Shown: piece after piece, positions 477 to 57,049 of the stretch
Layout of the letters: the number at the start of each line of letters is the position of its first letter
Numbering within the stretch: the stretch's first letter is position 1
NCBI RefSeq assembly: GCF_000189755.2
Contig: NZ_KI912183.1
Coordinates: 1,304,257-1,368,256, forward strand
Length of the DNA stretch: 64,000 nucleotides
Source: Desulfotomaculum nigrificans DSM 574
GTDB lineage: Bacteria; Bacillota; Desulfotomaculia; Desulfotomaculales; Desulfotomaculaceae
Direction: 5' to 3'
The notes under the pieces: model-generated
Told to the model about the DNA's origin: nothing
Database searches by the model: none
Seen by the model: the letters and a program-made list of their open reading frames with translations, nothing else
Made by a program: the position numbers and the translations under genes

Positions 477-716
477 AATTAAACATGCGGCTATGAAGGA
501 GAAAAGTAAAATTCCCATGTCTGACAGAGAGTGGGACTCGGCGGCTGGAAGGTCCCTCAGACTAAGAATTTGAAACCCCGCTCCGGAGCTGTTCGGGAAT
601 AACCGAACCGGTGGCCCCCGATATCAGGCAAAGAGGGAATGCAGGAGTTTGCCTGCATTAACGAAGGTGGTACCGCGAAAGTGAACCTTTCGTCCTTTGG
701 GACGAAAGGTTTTTTT
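477..716 (+). promoter_or_regulatory. T-box leader (predicted proline-responsive)
   Basis: The untranslated leader carries the T-box core GGTGGTACCGCG (666-677), an AGAGAG element near 517, a GGCTGGAAGG-type apical loop near 541-551 and a terminator at 686-716. In the antiterminator the TGGT bulge would pair with the ACCA end of uncharged tRNA, matching a tRNA with discriminator A. The specifier loop around 570-580 contains ACCCCG, compatible with the proline codons CCC or CCG, but the exact codon was not fixed by folding. Its position before proBAC supports proline specificity: uncharged tRNA-Pro would allow read-through into biosynthesis genes. Confidence 0.88.
686..716 (+). terminator. T-box expression-platform terminator
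   Basis: CCTTTCGTC (686-694) pairs perfectly with GACGAAAGG (701-709) and is followed by a run of seven T. It competes with the antiterminator formed by the T-box core just upstream. Confidence 0.85.
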
Positions 717-26901: not shown

Positions 26902-27118
26902 GCAGGGACTTCTATTATCCACCGTTCACCCCGATCTCCGCACCGAAAAGACTAGGACTCACTTCCGGGCAAAAACCGGTCGCCCTCCACGCGCCGTCCT
27001 GGCGCGATCGGGCTAACGCGCACTTCCTGTGCGCGTTCCCAGTTTTCTGCCCTCCGTTCGTCAAGTCTTTTGGCGGTGCTCCGATAGGGGTTCACTCTTG
27101 GATAACAGAAGTCCCTGC
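26902..27118. repeat. 217-base inverted-repeat element (MITE-like or structured RNA)
   Basis: The ends GCAGGGACTTCTATTATCC (26902-26920) and GGATAACAGAAGTCCCTGC (27100-27118) are inverted repeats with one mismatch, and pairing continues inward imperfectly (AAAAGACT/AGTCTTTT and more) to a central hairpin of GCGCAC/GTGCGC type near 27017-27037. A shorter relative is at 53282-53343. The two frames that span it are shadows of the palindrome. No target-site duplication was identified. Confidence 0.7.
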
Positions 27119-27152: not shown

Positions 27153-29168
27153 TTACTTGTTATCTTTAAACATGTCTCCAAATACGTCACCGAGGGTCAG
27201 GTTATCTTCTTTGGGTGCTTCCACCTTGGGCTCTGGGTTTTCTGGCTTGCGGGAACGGTTTTCCCGGGCGGGACGTGCTTCGCCGTTCACCTCGCGGATG
27301 GAGAGGCGAATGCGTTTTTCTGCCGGGTCAACGCTCAGTACCTTAACGTCAATTTCTTCGCCCTCGGTTACCACTTCATCCGGCTTGGCAACATGGCGGT
27401 CGGCCAGGTGAGAAATGTGTACCAGGCCTTCCACGCCGGGTTCCAGTTGGACAAAGGCGCCAAAGGGAGCCAGGCGTACAACTTTAGCTTTAACCACCGC
27501 ACCCACAGGGTATTTTTCTTCCACGTTATCCCAGGGGTTGGGCAAAATTTGTTTCCGGCCCAGGGAAATCTTTTCGTTTTCCCGGTCTACCTTCAATACC
27601 ATTACCTCTATCTCATCACCCACATTAACCACCTCGGAAGGATGGTTAATGCGGTACCAGCTCATTTCGGAAATATGCAATAAGCCATCCAGACCGCCCA
27701 GGTCAACAAAGGCACCAAAGTTGGTTAAACGGCGAACAATACCTTTAACGGTTTGGCCCTCCTGGATGCTGGCCAGCAGTTCTGCGCGCTTGCGGGCATA
27801 TTGTTCCTCCAGTACGGCTTTACGGGAAACCACAACTTTCTTCCGCTGCTTGTTCATTTCAATAACCCGTACTTCAACTTCCTGGTTCAGGTATTTGGAG
27901 AGATCTTCCACATAACCACGATCCACCAGGGAAGCAGGCAGGAAGGCACGCACCCCAATATCTACGATGAGACCGCCTTTAACCACTTCTCTTACTACAC
28001 CTTTAATGACTGTGCCATTTTCCATGGCTTGCTCCAGGCTACCCCAGGCCTTTTCAGCATCGGCCCGCACCTTGGAGAGAATTAACTTACCTTCATTATC
28101 TTCGGCTTTAACCACCATGCACTCTATTTCATCCCCCACCTTGACTACGTCCTGGGGATTATCCACCTCATAACAGGCCAGTTCTTTGCGGGGTACAACA
28201 CCTTCGGATTTTGCTCCCACATCTACCATCACTTCGTCAGGGCCAACCTGCACCACAACGCCCTTGATTAATTCGCCGGCCTGGGGAGACTTAACCTCCA
28301 TGGCATCTTTCATTTCTTCTTCACCATTGGTCATCTGGTCCAGCTCTTTCATCCTTCTTTTAACCTCCTCTATAATTGCGTCAGGTGTTGAAGCACCCGC
28401 TGTCAGCCCTGCCGTCTTTACTCCCCGGAACCATTCCTCCTGCAGTTCGGCTGCTGATTCCACATGATAGGTGGGAGTTCCTGATTCCCGGCATATCTTG
28501 GCTAATTTTTTAGTATTGGCACTTTCTCTGCCTCCTACCACCACCATTACATCTACCTGCTTGGCTAACTCCAAGGCGGCTCGCTGGCGTTCGCCTGTGG
28601 CCAAACAAATGGTGTTGCGGGCGTCAACTTCGACTCCTTGTTGTTTAAGGGCTTCAACCACTCCCTGGTAGTTAGCGACCGGCTGGGTTGTTTGGGCCAC
28701 CAGGCCTACCTTGGAATGATCAACCTGACTAATTTGATCAGCATTTTCAATTACTATTCCTTTGCCCCCGCTCCAACCCAGGATACCCTGTACCTCCGGG
28801 TGGCCCGGATCACCAACGATATAAACGGGCAGACCCTTTTCGGCCATTTCACGGGCAAATTTTTGTGCCCTGCCCACAAAGGGACAGGTTGCGTCTATTA
28901 TTTTTATACCTTTGTCGGCAGCCTGGCGGAATACTTCCGGACTCACGCCATGGGATCTGATAATGACCGTGCCCCCGTCAACCTGATCCAGGCTGTTGAT
29001 CTCCTTAATTCCCTTTTGGGCCAGGTCTTGTACCACCCGGGGATTATGGATTAACGGCCCCAGCGTATAAATAGGGCCCTTCTCCTCTGCGGCAGCGGCT
29101 AGGGTCATTTCGATGGCCCGCTTTACGCCGTAACAAAAACCTGCCTTACCGGCCACCCTGACCTCCAC
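27153..29168 (-). CDS. ispH-rpsA: bifunctional 4-hydroxy-3-methylbut-2-enyl diphosphate reductase / ribosomal protein S1
   Basis: 671 residues, a clostridial-type fusion. Residues ~1-285 are IspH, the last enzyme of the MEP isoprenoid pathway, with cluster cysteines in AGFCYGVKRA, DATCPFV and NTICLATGERQ. Residues ~300-650 hold four S1 RNA-binding repeats (GVVPRKEL, GLIVDIGVRAFLPAS, GAFVDLGGLDGLLHIS, GAFVQLEPGVEGLVHIS), then a charged tail. GTG 29168 is preferred: it gives a typical IspH N-terminus and an AGAAGGTGAT site at good spacing; ATG 29174 is closer to that site. Last gene of the aro-cmk-plsC operon. Confidence 0.93.
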   Translation of the reverse strand: MEVRVAGKAGFCYGVKRAIEMTLAAAAEEKGPIYTLGPLIHNPRVVQDLAQKGIKEINSLDQVDGGTVIIRSHGVSPEVFRQAADKGIKIIDATCPFVGRAQKFAREMAEKGLPVYIVGDPGHPEVQGILGWSGGKGIVIENADQISQVDHSKVGLVAQTTQPVANYQGVVEALKQQGVEVDARNTICLATGERQRAALELAKQVDVMVVVGGRESANTKKLAKICRESGTPTYHVESAAELQEEWFRGVKTAGLTAGASTPDAIIEEVKRRMKELDQMTNGEEEMKDAMEVKSPQAGELIKGVVVQVGPDEVMVDVGAKSEGVVPRKELACYEVDNPQDVVKVGDEIECMVVKAEDNEGKLILSKVRADAEKAWGSLEQAMENGTVIKGVVREVVKGGLIVDIGVRAFLPASLVDRGYVEDLSKYLNQEVEVRVIEMNKQRKKVVVSRKAVLEEQYARKRAELLASIQEGQTVKGIVRRLTNFGAFVDLGGLDGLLHISEMSWYRINHPSEVVNVGDEIEVMVLKVDRENEKISLGRKQILPNPWDNVEEKYPVGAVVKAKVVRLAPFGAFVQLEPGVEGLVHISHLADRHVAKPDEVVTEGEEIDVKVLSVDPAEKRIRLSIREVNGEARPARENRSRKPENPEPKVEAPKEDNLTLGDVFGDMFKDNK

Positions 29169-29219
29169 ATACATCACCTTCTATTCTCAGGTAAGTTTAC
29201 CCATAAAGCAAAAGCAAAA

Positions 29220-30742: not shown

Positions 30743-32032
30743 TTATTCTACCGCCAGTGATTTTAATGCATCCGCAAAACCTGGGAAACTGACCGGTATA
30801 CACTGGGCTTCTTTGATTACGGTGCGCCCCCGGGCGGCCAGGCCGGCTACGGCCATGGCCATGGCGATGCGGTGATCGCCGTGGCTGTCCACCACTGCTC
30901 CGGTTAGGGGTTTACCGCCTTTTATAATCAATCCGTCCGGTAGTTCCTCCACCGCCGCCCCCAGTTTTGTTAGTTCGCCGGCCACTGTGGCCAGGCGGTT
31001 GCTTTCCTTTACTTTCAGTTCAGCGGCATCCCGGATGACGGTGGTGCCCCGGGCGCAGGCGGCGGCCACCGCAATAATAGGAATTTCATCGATTAACCGG
31101 GGGATCAGGTTACCGGAGATCTCTGTTCCCTGCAGGTCGCTACCTTTAACTCTAATGTCCGCCACCGGCTCGCCACACTGGTCCCGCAGGTTTAACAATT
31201 CCACCTGGCCGCCCATGTTCTTTAGAACTTCTAACAATCCATCCCTGGTGGGGTTGACCCCAACTCCCCTGATGGTTACTTCCGAGCCAGGTAAAATAGC
31301 TGCGGCTACCATTAGAAAGGCAGCTGAGGAAATATCTCCGGGTACCACCACCTGGCGGCCTTTTAATTCCGGTCGGCCCTTTATGGTTACTGTGGTACCC
31401 TCCTGCTTTATATCAGCCCCAAAGCTCTTTAGCATGCGTTCGGTATGGTCCCGGGATATAGTGGGTTCGGTTACTGAGGTTTCCCCCTGGGCAAACAGCC
31501 CCGCCAGCAGGATGGCTGACTTAACCTGGGCACTGGCCACCGGCGATTGATAGTTTAAGGGCTTTAGTTGGCCGCCCCGGATAGCCAGGGGTAACAGGTT
31601 GTTGTTATCCCGGCCAATAAACTTGGCCCCCATGCCGGCCAGAGGAGTGGTAACCCTGGCCATGGGTCGCCGGCTTAGGGATGCATCGCCGGTAATAATG
31701 CTGCAAAAGGACTGGCCGGCCAGAATCCCCAACATCAGCCGGGTGGTGGTGCCGGAATTTCCGGCATCTAAAATGGTAACCGGCTCCTGCAGCCCGTTTA
31801 AACCAACCCCCTGGATGGTTAAACAGCCGTTGTCCGGTCCTTCAACAGGCACCCCCAGGGCCCTGAAGCAACGTACCGTAGACAGGCAATCCTCACCCGT
31901 CAGAAAATTCTCCACCCGGGTGGTTCCCCGGGCCAGGGCCCCTAACATGACGGCCCGGTGGGAGATGGATTTGTCCCCGGGGACAGCAGTTTCGCCTTTT
32001 AATTGCTTTATTTGGTTAATGGTAAGTTCCAT
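30743..32032 (-). CDS. aroA: 3-phosphoshikimate 1-carboxyvinyltransferase (EPSP synthase)
   Basis: 429 residues from ATG 32032 (GCGGTGAT upstream); an ATG at 32047 lacks a ribosome site. Transfers the enolpyruvyl group from PEP to shikimate 3-phosphate. Motifs: [10 protein letters not shown] at residues ~18-27, [26 protein letters not shown], and the C-terminal [12 protein letters not shown]. It starts just inside the tyrA stop region and belongs to the aroF-tyrA-aroA operon. Confidence 0.95.
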
Positions 32033-32036
32033 GTTA

Positions 32037-32912
32037 TCACCGCTCATTCAGATAGGTCCTATTCTCCGCCAGGGACATCCTGACTTCTCTGGCCCGTTCC
32101 AGCACAGCCACTAAAGCCGTTTGATCGAAATTATTAATGGCCAGTTCCATCTCTGCCAACTGGCGGCGGAATTGTCTTACCGCCTTTAATACCATGTCCC
32201 GGTTGGTCAGTAAAATATCCCGCCACATGTTGGCATTGGCAGCGGCAATTCTGGTGGTATCCCGGAATCCTCCGGCGGCCAACTGCAGCAGCATATCGGA
32301 TGATGGTTCCGCCGCTACGGTATTTACCAGAGTAGCGGCCAAAAGATGGGGCAGGTGACTGATCATCGCCACCAGGCGGTCATGCTGCTCGGCTGCCAGT
32401 TCCACCGGATGGGCCCCCATCTCTTTAACCAGCCTTTTAAGTTTTTGCAAGGCAACCGGGTCAAAGTTTTTCGTTGGTGTGAGTATGTAGGAAGCCCCCT
32501 GAAAAAGGTCTCCCCTGGCCCCGGCTACCCCGCTTACTTCCAGTCCGGCCATGGGATGCCCGCCAATAAAATGGACCCCGGCGGGCAGCATCTTTTCGGC
32601 CCGCTCTACCAGCCGCCCCTTGACACTGCCCACATCGGTAATTATCGTTCCGGGGGTCAGGAAGGGAACCGCCATTTCCAAAACCCCCAGGGTAACCCCG
32701 ACAGGGGTAGCCAATATGAAAAGATCCGCTGCCGGTAAGGCTTCTACCAGGCTGGCGGCCCGGTGAACGGCTCCCATGGTTACGGCCAAATTGAGGTTGT
32801 CCCGGTTAGGGTCCACCCCCACCACTTCTGCGGCCAACCGACGCTCAGTTAAGGCCAGCCCCAGGGATCCGCCAATCAAGCCGACACCGGCGATGACGAC
32901 TTTTTTGAACAG
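32037..32912 (-). CDS. tyrA: prephenate dehydrogenase with a CTG start
   Basis: Oxidatively decarboxylates prephenate towards tyrosine; ~291 residues. The NAD motif reads [12 protein letters not shown], and the first ATG/GTG/TTG in frame (TTG 32879) falls inside it, which would destroy the fold. Upstream the frame is open to a stop at 32925-32927 and contains CTG 32912, eight bases after GGAGG (32925-32921), giving (M)[14 protein letters not shown], a typical N-terminus. I therefore annotate a CTG start. GGHPMAG and the helical C-terminal domain are intact; no ACT domain is present. Confidence 0.88.
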
Positions 32913-33055: not shown

Positions 33056-34084
33056 CTAGCCCTCCAGACTACCCATTCTCTTTCCGAACACCCCGGCCAC
33101 ATCTTTCAGCTGTTGCATTAAGGCATGGAAATTCTCGGGTGTTAGGGATTGGGGGCCATCGCACAGGGCTTCAGCCGGGTTGGGGTGTACCTCAATTAAC
33201 AGGCCATCGGCCCCGGCAGCTACAGCAGCCAGGCTCATGGGAGCCACAAACCGCCATTTACCCAGGGCGTGGCTGGGGTCAACAATGACCGGCAGGTGAG
33301 ACAGGTATTTAACCACCGGCACCGCACCCAGATCCAGGGTGTTTCTGGTAAAGTTTTCAAAGGTGCGGATACCTCTCTCGCACAAAATAACGTTGTAATT
33401 TCCCCCGGCCATAATATATTCGGCGGCCATCAGCCATTCCTCAATGGTGGCTGAGGCTCCCCGCTTTAACAGCACCGGCTTATTCACCTTGGCCACTTCC
33501 CTTAACAGGAAGAAATTTTGCATGTTACGGGTACCAATTTGCAGTACATCAGCGTAGTGGGCCACCATGGGCAAGGTGCCGGCATCCATAACTTCCGTCA
33601 CGATCTTTAACCCGGTTTTTTCCCGTGCTTCGGCCAGCAACTTTAACCCTGCTTCCTCCAGCCCCTGGAAGGAATAAGGTGAAGTGCGGGGTTTAAAGGC
33701 ACCCCCCCTTAACAGGGTGGCTCCGGCAGCCTTAACCAGCTGCGCTGCCTCCAAAAGCTGTTCCCGGCTTTCCACGGCACAGGGACCAGCCATAACTTGA
33801 ATATTCCCACCGCCAATCTCCAGGTCCCCCACTTTAACAATGGTATCCTGTTCCTTAAATGCTCGACTGGCCAGTTTATATGGCTGCAAAACGGGCACCA
33901 CACTTTCCACCTCGGGCATGGCTTCCAGGGCTAGATCCCTCATCCTGGTTTTATCGCCAATGGCACCAATAATGGTTCTTTCCACACCCTGGGACAGGTG
34001 TATTTGAAAACCGGCTCGCTTCAGCCGTTCTAATACTGCATCAACATGCTTACTGTCAGCTTTCTGGCTCATTACTACAATCAT
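33056..34084 (-). CDS. aroF: 3-deoxy-7-phosphoheptulonate synthase (type I-beta DAHP synthase)
   Basis: 342 residues from ATG 34084 behind AAGGAGG. Condenses PEP with erythrose 4-phosphate, the entry step of aromatic synthesis. An N-terminal ferredoxin-like regulatory domain (~1-70) precedes the barrel (~80-335), with [33 protein letters not shown] and DPSHALGK. First gene of the operon; a leader peptide with Trp codons and a terminator precede it, so its transcription is probably attenuated. Confidence 0.95.
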
Positions 34085-34146
34085 TAGTTTTCCTCCTTCC
34101 TTGTCCATCCAAGGCCTACCATCCTTAATATAACCATAAGATTAAA

Positions 34147-34177
34147 TAAAAAAGACACCTTTTTAAGAGTGGTGCCT
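34147..34177 (-). terminator. leader terminator (attenuator) of the aroF operon
   Basis: Read on minus, AGGCACC (34177-34171) pairs with GGTGTCT (34159-34153; one wobble) and is followed by TTTTTATTT. A competing hairpin is possible: TGTCTAT (34195-34189) with ATAGGCA (34179-34173), which removes the terminator's left arm. Confidence 0.7.
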
Positions 34178-34210
34178 ATCCTGTAAAAATAGACATGACT
34201 ACCCCCTTTC

Positions 34211-34240
34211 CTACCATACTAACCATTCTACGTTTTTCAT
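34211..34240 (-). CDS. aroF leader peptide with two Trp codons (predicted)
   Basis: A nine-codon frame, MKNVEWLVW, on the minus strand, with ATG 34240 about ten bases after a GGGGGGA ribosome site and a stop at 34211. Trp is at positions 6 and 9. It precedes an antiterminator/terminator pair upstream of aroF, the architecture of transcription attenuation: ribosome stalling at Trp codons under starvation would favour read-through. Pairing of the start region (ACATGA) with TCATGT just before the antiterminator would serve as the protector. A second tiny frame, MSIFTG, begins at 34196. Prediction only. Confidence 0.55.
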   Translation of the reverse strand: MKNVEWLVW

Positions 34241-34359
34241 GTTAACACGGTCCCCCCGTGGATGGCAATTAGCTTATGAAAATTTGGCAACATTTTTTGC
34301 ATTTTTAAGACGGTCTAATGTTACAATAGACTGGAGAATTATTGAAAGGGGTATAGAAA

Positions 34360-36234: not shown

Positions 36235-36603
36235 TTAATGGACTAAATCAGGTCTCAGGTTTATGGCCTGACGTAAATACACATGTTTCATTTCCTTTTG
36301 CCCCTTGCTTGTATTAACGTGAACCAGTACCCTAATACATTTAGGCAGGGCACCCACTACATCTGATTCAAGGGCACACATTAAGGGCACATAATCCCAC
36401 CCCATGGCACGGGCTGCCCGAGCCGGAAAAGCCGCGTTTAAATCAGGGGTGACAGTAAAGAATACACTGCAAATATCCTCTATGTTAATTTGATTTTGCT
36501 CTAAAATACTGCGCAATAACTCCTGCGTGGCGTCAAATATCTCCTGGGCCTCATTCCGTTCTACCGTAGTAGCCCCCCTGATTCCTCTCACAAAAAATGC
36601 CAT
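36235..36603 (-). CDS. aroH: chorismate mutase, AroH type
   Basis: 122 residues, the usual size of the Bacillus AroH trimer subunit, which converts chorismate to prephenate. Motifs: VRGIRGATTVERN at residues 5-17 (active-site Arg), FTVTPDLNAAFPARAAR and VPLMCALE. It begins 18 bases after the HutP-like gene, so the two are cotranscribed. Together with aroF, tyrA and aroA nearby it supplies prephenate for TyrA. Confidence 0.94.
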   Translation of the reverse strand: MAFFVRGIRGATTVERNEAQEIFDATQELLRSILEQNQINIEDICSVFFTVTPDLNAAFPARAARAMGWDYVPLMCALESDVVGALPKCIRVLVHVNTSKGQKEMKHVYLRQAINLRPDLVH

Positions 36604-36621: not shown

Positions 36622-37044
36622 CTACAAACTTGATACCGCCCGGTGTCCTAAGCCAATGGCAACTTCATCCAGATGCAAGAGGCCAACGCCAAAAAATACC
36701 GCTACACTGATATGATCTGCCTGCCGGGCAATGCCTATTTTGCCCCCTACATTTAAGCCTACTGCCTTGGGCATAATCATGGAAAGGGCCTCTCTGGTGG
36801 CACCGGCCACCGCCCCCTCATCTGCATGCACCTCTTTAATTACTCCCTCTCTTTTGGCAGCCACAACCGCTCGTTCAATTATCCGATTAACCGAGGAAAT
36901 AAAATCACCACCGTAATCCACTGCGGCAGTACGAATGCCCTCATTTAAAAATTTAGCCTTGTATTCTTTCTCCTGTTCTCTGGTCTCGGTCATAGACATT
37001 TCAATGGCTACGCGGGCCACTTTCTTGCTGCCTGGAAAACTCAA
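36622..37044 (-). CDS. HutP family protein (predicted RNA-binding antiterminator)
   Basis: 140 residues from TTG 37044 behind AGGGAGGG. The middle and C-terminal parts match the HutP family: AAKREGVIKEVHADEGAVAGA and ISVAVFFGVGLLHLDEVAIGLGHRAV. Bacillus HutP binds leader RNA in the presence of histidine and Mg2+ and blocks termination of the hut operon. Here no hut genes are near; the partner gene is aroH, so a different amino-acid target is possible (inference). Confidence 0.78.
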   Translation of the reverse strand: MSFPGSKKVARVAIEMSMTETREQEKEYKAKFLNEGIRTAAVDYGGDFISSVNRIIERAVVAAKREGVIKEVHADEGAVAGATREALSMIMPKAVGLNVGGKIGIARQADHISVAVFFGVGLLHLDEVAIGLGHRAVSSL

Positions 37045-56699: not shown

Positions 56700-57049
56700 A
56701 GCAATTGGGATAGTCTATAAGCCGTTGTGGCTTCACCACTCTCTCTTATAGATAGGTCTCTGTTCAGAGACAACTGCTATCAACAAATTTCCTCGAACGC
56801 ACCGTTCTTAGCCTGCCCTGACCTTCGGCCTTTCTCTTTTTACGAGCACTATGGCCTCTGCTGATTTCTGCCGACTTAGCCGAATATAACAGCCTCAAAT
56901 GTGATTAGTGTACCTCAGGTCGGGAATTTGCTTCCAGCTTCTTTCAGATTCCACCTCACGATGGACACCCTTGCTCTTGGCTAATAGTTGGTGTTGCCAA
57001 CCCCTGTTCTGGACTTTCACCATAGAGCTATCGCCTATGCCGGGCATAC
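56700..57049 (-). mobile_element. group IIC intron remnant (5' part, no reverse transcriptase)
   Basis: Read on minus from 57049, the sequence begins GTATGCCCGGCATAGGC and continues with GGTGAAAGTCC, CAAGGGTGTCCATCGTGAGG and GGAATCTGAAAGAAGC, close to domain I of group IIC introns such as those of Bacillus halodurans and Oceanobacillus. Comparable sequence runs for ~350 bases and then fades. No reverse-transcriptase frame and no domain V was found. It starts two bases past a strong terminator hairpin, the known target of IIC introns. Confidence 0.75.

Follow-up and report, generated by a model that had tools for sequence, protein, structure and literature searches.

A HutP-family protein encoded beside aroH as the probable regulator of a repeat-bearing aroF leader in Desulfotomaculum nigrificans

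Introduction

What decides whether transcription proceeds into the aroF-tyrA-aroA operon of Desulfotomaculum nigrificans DSM 574? An earlier note on this DNA had assigned the region ahead of aroF to ribosome-mediated attenuation at a nine-codon Trp-codon frame, MKNVEWLVW. TRAP, a regulator of trp leaders, recognizes about 9-11 NAG triplets with spacers of 2-3 nt, and in the hut leader of Bacillus subtilis the NAG triplets recur with a period of 7. Here, the aroF leader was analyzed within a window of 64 kb, the whole stretch of DNA considered, and compared with 113 genomes of the order, which also constitute the class-level sample, and with 398 genomes sampled from the phylum.

Results

Layout of the aroF leader

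The features of the leader and its surroundings are collected in Table 1. A promoter, repeats, a strong Shine-Dalgarno sequence, a short frame and a terminator are all common upstream of aroF in the nine genomes of the genus; the nearest named AroF homologues are those of Desulforamulus putei (86%) and D. aeronauticus (81%), which puts the window within or beside Desulforamulus. The terminator AGGCACC/GGTGTCT with its T run, described earlier, is present ahead of aroF as a stem of seven pairs (34177-34171 with 34159-34153, one G-U) with an 11-base loop followed by five more T, and it was not called by a stricter scan with a loop limit of 8. The letters TGTCTAT and ATAGGCA, put forward as an antiterminator, are likewise there and can pair. 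A promoter-like pair of hexamers (at least 9 of 12) lies 7-8 nt before the first repeat in eight of the nine genomes of the genus; among 69 leaders such a pair ends 3-20 nt before unit 1 in 26 (1.7 expected), half of them at 7-8 nt, in a control which, like the shuffle controls for repeat count, strand, fold and mini-ORF given below, takes no account of relatedness. This arrangement suggests a transcript start at about the first UAGNAYGG repeat.

The promoter position bears directly on the proposed leader peptide. The letters of MKNVEWLVW exist as described and appear not to make a usable leader ORF; the first two letters of its ATG are also the final two of the -10 hexamer. Because the ATG sits on this hexamer, both the start codon and the strong ribosome site ascribed to the frame are located 5' of the probable transcript start; the ACATGA half of a second pairing that had been suggested, ACATGA/TCATGT, also overlaps the -10 box. 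Judged from the promoter position, the peptide is probably not transcribed. Its two Trp codons, earlier taken for control codons, each belong to the AUGG of a repeat, and its stop is the third UAG; a transcribed leader ORF with conserved control codons, as in trp-type attenuators, was not found. A comparison with relatives had been named as the check: 23 of the 71 hutP-positive leaders having the repeat offer any in-frame start codon within 45 nt, and apart from the V-E-W that stems from the repeat their peptides have little in common. One relative, G007 (L003), has an ATG at the equivalent spot, again on the -10 box, which opens a longer frame (MEFVEWLAMVFF...), and the repeat UAGNAYGG is kept where a frame of the MKNVEWLVW type is absent. 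On this comparison of sequences, it is the conserved RNA repeat that gives rise to the apparent Trp-codon leader as a by-product. The earlier reading was right about an attenuator with a terminator and probably right that translation of a short frame is involved, and wrong about the frame.

Table 1 Features of the window (positions in the window)
Feature	Position	Strand	Remark
HutP-family protein, proposed RNA-binding regulator	36622..37044	-	PF09021; 2.5 kb upstream of the aroF leader
aroH, chorismate mutase	36235..36603	-	directly 3' of hutP
Three repeat units at hutP stop/aroH start	36624-36617, 36607-36600, 36563-36556	-	
Promoter-like TTGCCA-18 bp-TAACAT	TTGCCA 34268-34263, TAACAT 34244-34239	-	7-8 nt 5' of repeat unit 1
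MKNVEWLVW frame claimed earlier	34211..34240	-	ATG 34240 to TAG 34211; judged non-functional as leader peptide
Repeat unit 1, UAGAAUGG	34223..34230	-	close to the inferred transcript 5' end
Repeat unit 2, UAGUAUGG	34214..34221	-	
Third UAG of cluster	34211..34213	-	adjoins the mini-ORF ribosome site
Shine-Dalgarno AAGGGGG of conserved mini-ORF	34202..34208	-	
Mini-ORF MSIFTG, six codons	34176..34196	-	stop overlaps terminator left arm
Intrinsic terminator AGGCACC/GGTGTCT + T run	34148..34177	-	
Extra repeat unit AAGGAUGG, then UAG	34119..34126	-	near aroF start
aroF, DAHP synthase	33056..34084	-	gene 1 of aroF-tyrA-aroA
tyrA, prephenate dehydrogenase	32037..32879	-	
aroA, EPSP synthase	30743..32047	-	
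674-aa ORF	27153-29177	-	IspH-like part, then ribosomal protein S1-type repeats (by eye)
TwoAYGGAY RNA (Rfam RF01731)	26933-27086	-	46.7 bits; just 3' of aro-cmk-ispH/rpsA gene row
T-box leader	484-700	+	107.7 bits
Group II intron D1-D4 match	56795-56965	-	

A one-stranded RNA repeat with a period of eight

Examination of 219 sites gave the repeat unit as NAGNAYGG; a G stands before it in 85%, and UAG often comes after it. From one unit to the next the spacing is 8 in 58 cases and 9 in eight, every other value being met at most five times, and 220 repeats lie on the sense strand versus 7 on the antisense strand. Three NAG triplets at an exact period of 8 occur in 47 of 75 leaders from genomes with hutP versus 1 of 28 from genomes without it; any other exact period from 4 to 12 is found in at most 8 of the 75, period 7 in three. 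Individual leaders deviate from the strict form: the UAG spacings in the window are 9 and 8 instead of 8 and 8, G019 has two clear clusters of three NAG triplets, and in G026 the first three NAGs are spaced wider. Over both strands of the whole 64-kb window, at least two NAGNAYGG units within 60 nt were present only in the aroF leader and at the hutP-aroH junction.

The repeat accompanies a HutP-family gene

The protein encoded upstream of aroF matches the HutP family, PF09021, with an E value of 4.6e-50 and 169.6 bits (curated cut-off 25). At its junction with aroH, the UAG of the first repeat unit is the hutP stop codon and the second unit spans the aroH start. HutP proteins above the cut-off were identified in 79 of the 113 genomes of the order, ten of the 113 also possessing a second, lower-scoring HutP. 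The main hutP and the best aroF are located on one contig in 62 of the 79 genomes, and in all 62 hutP is upstream on the same strand, within 1 kb in 22, within 5 kb in 40 and within 12 kb in 58. Of 38 hutP loci in the order, 34 have aroH directly after hutP, and 18 have no repeat unit in the 100 nt around the hutP end.

At least two units precede aroF in 68 of 72 genomes with a main hutP versus 3 of 28 without, a comparison that excludes G101 (contig end) and G023 (T-box paralogue). At the level of genera the figures are 32 of 33 versus 2 of 15 (Fisher p 7e-9, not phylogeny-corrected). The mean number of NAGNAYGG units ahead of aroF is 2.93 in 75 hutP-positive upstream regions (0.24 in shuffles) versus 0.43 in 28 hutP-negative ones, in a set that counts G109 twice and leaves out L290 (G044, no aroF start) and G043, G047, G051 and G069 (no listed best aroF). 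We consider the repeat, its period, its strand and its tie to the AroH-linked HutP paralogue well supported by sequence comparison.

Exceptions occur on both sides. The three genomes of genus g48 contain HutP, yet carry only 1, 0 and 0 units ahead of aroF. The hutP-negative genomes with at least two units are G056, G057 and G039; those of G056 and G057 are stray units in coding sequence or at a start codon, with no tandem. In genus g16, period-8 sites stand at a LivJ-type gene in G038 (L207/L324) and at aroF in G039 (L208/L258), and despite these good sites no HutP was detected in either genome by PF09021 or by profile A1, which was built from 30 of the 79 main HutPs. A contig end was considered as an explanation for the absence of HutP from G039 and did not hold up, and the exception stands. 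trpE of G039 has a NAG-repeat leader and is preceded by neither hutP nor aroH.

Sites at other genes and in other groups

Across the 113 genomes of the order, the double-repeat pattern TAGNAYGGNAGNAYGG gave 79 matches versus 17 with a reversed control. By our reading, 59 of the 79 precede genes that fall into nine classes represented two or more times and led by DAHP synthase, the proteins behind 12 matches having been scanned with Pfam or NCBIfam and the others classed by visible N-terminal similarity or by their position ahead of aroF. The genes comprise 21 for DAHP synthase, 11 for the lactate-permease family, six for DctP binding proteins, six for GHMP-kinase/beta-RFAP-synthase-like proteins, four for SSF symporters, four for LivJ-type and two for TrpX-type binding proteins, three for AMP-dependent ligases, two for phenylacetate-CoA ligases and one for a hydroxyacid dehydrogenase; the remaining 19 matches are in ORFs or unclassified. 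The gene with a GHMP-kinase fold, which in the copy scanned (L198) shows weak similarity to beta-RFAP synthase, follows a double repeat at L197, L198, L298, L302, L306 and L323, in several genera.

Of the 398 phylum genomes, 257 have a PF09021 protein. Among 28 phylum loci beyond the order, selected by highest score and not at random, aroH is next to hutP in 27. Repeats lie ahead of aroF in L338, L349 and L354 and ahead of hutP in L336, L343 and L348, and four named Thermoanaerobacter loci (L044, L046, L047, L049) have UAGAACGG at -27 and UAGAAUGG at -19 of aroF. Most other aroF loci outside the order, as retrieved by the AroF homologue search, have no repeat.

A predicted HutP fold with an altered histidine site

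Five AlphaFold models of the window HutP were obtained, the best with a pLDDT of 82.5 and the rest between 68.6 and 49.0. Compared with solved HutP, the model gave Z 17.6 over 127 residues at 2.1 Å, which predicts a HutP fold. PDB sequence searches with the window HutP and with profile A1 found no HutP, and the link to the solved protein is made through Pfam, the fold search and hhalign against hut-type HutP (probability 93%). Seven hut-type HutPs were combined in profile A2, which matches solved HutP 1wmq_A with E 3.7e-53 and keeps both HxxxH and EHE. In the profile alignment, the invariant Gly76 and Gly80 of A1 align with the invariant histidines of A2. GxxxG is present in 38 of 38 AroH-type sequences from the order and 28 of 28 from the phylum, and none has HxxxH, whose histidines we take to be ligands of the L-His/metal site. 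The fate of His138, presumably the third histidine of that site, was judged by eye, as the hhalign alignment ends before it.

Two loci with a hut-type protein (L363 and L364) carry five NAG triplets at an exact period of 7 between hutP2 and the next gene, beside a terminator-like stem; by eye, that gene looks like a hut gene of the imidazolonepropionase type. Both genomes carry the hut-type period-7 and the period-8 aro systems together. Of the nine hut-type loci looked at, these two have a period-7 NAG run ahead of a hut gene; six have no such run near the gene, and in L366 the run lies only in a simple CAG repeat. No period-7 NAG cluster within a terminator ahead of hut genes, as expected of a hut antiterminator, is present at the window aroF.

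A mini-ORF that ends on the terminator

The conserved short frame of the window is MSIFTG, further downstream than MKNVEWLVW. Fold and mini-ORF tests covered 61 of the 75 hutP-positive regions, namely those with a cluster and then a terminator as recognized by script; eight others have a cluster and no terminator by the rules used, some with a stem lacking a good T run, and one has no tandem. A start codon occurs 3-13 nt after the Shine-Dalgarno sequence in 59 of the 61 leaders (30 expected), and the mini-ORF stop falls at -2 to +4 of the terminator stem in 44 (7.4 expected with the spacer shuffled) and away from it in 17. The peptides are not conserved, ranging from MKT to MFLWSG, and the start and stop positions are; fixed positions with variable codons are the pattern expected if a terminating ribosome masks the terminator arm and the identity of the codons is immaterial. 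L008 (G006) has a bare start-stop mini-ORF (ATGTAA) after a strong Shine-Dalgarno sequence upstream of aroF, with no short peptide. In several transporter leaders, no clear mini-ORF accompanies the cluster and the terminator.

Predicted pairing of the Shine-Dalgarno region with the terminator left arm is 0.57 versus 0.15 in shuffles of the 61 leaders, while total upstream pairing of the arm is 0.62 in both. A long hairpin is predicted in the window leader at 85 nt. A GAAUGA/UCAUUC pairing was seen by eye in three LivJ-type leaders and is missing from most predicted partial-transcript folds.

Discussion

We consider it likely, though well short of certain, that the aroF leader is an attenuator controlled through a mini-ORF by the HutP-family protein encoded upstream beside aroH. 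The transcript would begin at about the first UAGNAYGG repeat, and an effector-activated oligomer of the HutP paralogue would bind clusters of three NAG triplets at a period of 8, the last NAG abutting the Shine-Dalgarno sequence of a mini-ORF, which in most leaders has 3-9 codons. As long as the site is free, ribosomes would translate the mini-ORF and stop on the terminator left arm, allowing read-through into aroF-tyrA-aroA; once the protein sits on the site, the mini-ORF would stay untranslated, the terminator would form and the operon would be off. Where the repeats cover the start of a gene, as they do at aroH and, in relatives, at several genes for transporters and CoA ligases, they may act by direct translational repression. 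Binding of the paralogue to the repeats, the effector, the direction of control and the mini-ORF step are inferred. Repression rather than activation is suggested by the leader geometry together with the sites that cover ribosome sites or start codons elsewhere, at Lactate_perm, SSF symporter and AMP-ligase genes and at aroH. The effector would probably be an aromatic amino acid or a pathway intermediate; since in the same genomes Phe has a T-box (at aroF2-pheA) and Trp has TRAP, tyrosine or a common aromatic signal is the natural guess.

Other readings keep the leader and change what acts on it. Closest to ours is one in which the HutP paralogue and its site are as proposed, but the protein acts on an antiterminator formed by the Shine-Dalgarno region and the terminator arm and not via ribosomes. 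The excess of predicted pairing between these two segments and the long hairpin at 85 nt speak for it; total upstream pairing of the arm equals that in shuffles, however, and the fixed start and stop of the mini-ORF would go unexplained, so we regard it as unlikely. Conversely, the ribosome could be the sensor, pausing for charged tRNA at an aromatic codon of the mini-ORF (often codon 4, Phe or Trp) while the repeats serve otherwise. Many mini-ORFs do contain such a codon (MSIFTG, MSNWLK, MFLWSG, MYIFK) and the positions of their starts and stops are conserved, but one family has MKT, MIT, MFT and MYT, others have MSN or M alone, the aromatic codon shifts among Phe, Trp and Tyr, and the repeats and the link to HutP are left without explanation, which makes this improbable. 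Sensing of tryptophan at MKNVEWLVW by classical attenuation can draw on two UGG codons before the stop, a terminator 3' of them, an aromatic operon and the longer frame of G007; the overlap of its ATG with the -10 hexamer, the poor conservation of the frame and the survival of the repeats even where the frame is lost leave it hardly credible.

The remaining two readings replace HutP as the partner of the repeats. That they are DNA operators of a transcription factor might be thought from their place just behind promoters in the leaders; they are confined, however, to one strand, lie 3' of the -10 box, cover start codons and ribosome sites at other genes, and are linked to a gene of an RNA-binding family. 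We find this very improbable, and the strand bias led us to reject it. All nine genomes of the genus have a gene for TRAP and, as at aroF, its sites are NAG-based, but the longest NAG chain with 2-3 nt spacers contains 1-3 triplets in the nine aroF leaders versus 6-8 in the six trpE leaders measured among the nine genomes, and a fixed AYGG is not a known feature of TRAP sites. Neither the number nor the spacing of the NAG triplets at aroF is that of a TRAP site, and binding of TRAP there was rejected on the chain length, its likelihood being close to negligible. At the trpE leader L124 Rfam reports nothing, and TRAP is read there from NAG spacing and the presence of TRAP. A T-box (RF00230) or other Rfam RNA at the aroF leader was rejected as well, since positions 34050-34320 gave no Rfam match at E up to 1. 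The earlier contrast with the T-box or TRAP control usual for aromatic operons in Firmicutes stands, neither of which appears to act at this aroF.

Controlled as proposed, the leader would share features with several known systems. With HutP and the hut leader of B. subtilis it has in common the protein family, the predicted fold and the coupling of an intrinsic terminator to NAG triplets clustered in threes. In contrast to hut-type systems, the aro leaders have a period of 8 with AYGG between the triplets, whereas the two hut-type loci found here have a period of 7; the aro site lies at the ribosome site of a mini-ORF, upstream of the terminator and not within it; the protein has GxxxG (66 of 66 AroH-type sequences) in place of HxxxH; its neighbour is aroH and not a hut gene; and control is probably by repression, not by antitermination. 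TRAP-controlled trp leaders also place NAG-type repeats ahead of aromatic operons, at trpE in the same genomes, but differ in spacing, number and flanking bases of the repeat and in the protein family. A short frame adjoining a terminator recalls trp-leader-type attenuators, yet here there is no conserved run of control codons, it is the stop that is positioned, and a putative protein site seems to control whether ribosomes gain access. Finally, a DAHP synthase paralogue is controlled in the same genome by the leader of aroF2-pheA (pheA named by eye), where Rfam reports T-boxes; that leader is a tRNA-sensing RNA, unlike the aroF leader, which has no Rfam match.

A wider proposal, that the AroH-linked HutP paralogue, having lost the histidine site, is a Bacillota-wide post-transcriptional regulator of aromatic synthesis and uptake, with NAG-N5 clusters, an aromatic effector and a mini-ORF switch, seems to us plausible and slightly favoured by the evidence. 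Among the matches listed in the open-access literature, of which parts of PMC7430163, PMC8934654 and PMC12456014 were drawn on, none by its title assigns HutP a role in aromatic metabolism, none links HutP with aroH, with Desulfotomaculum or with antitermination and UAG, and none describes a protein-gated mini-ORF attenuator; subscription reports could exist. If the proposal is true, a family known for one histidine operon would have a second, widespread role in the control of aromatic amino acids, working alongside TRAP and T-boxes within one cell, at sites that can be predicted, and many bacteria would control their aromatic synthesis genes in a way that has gone unrecognized.
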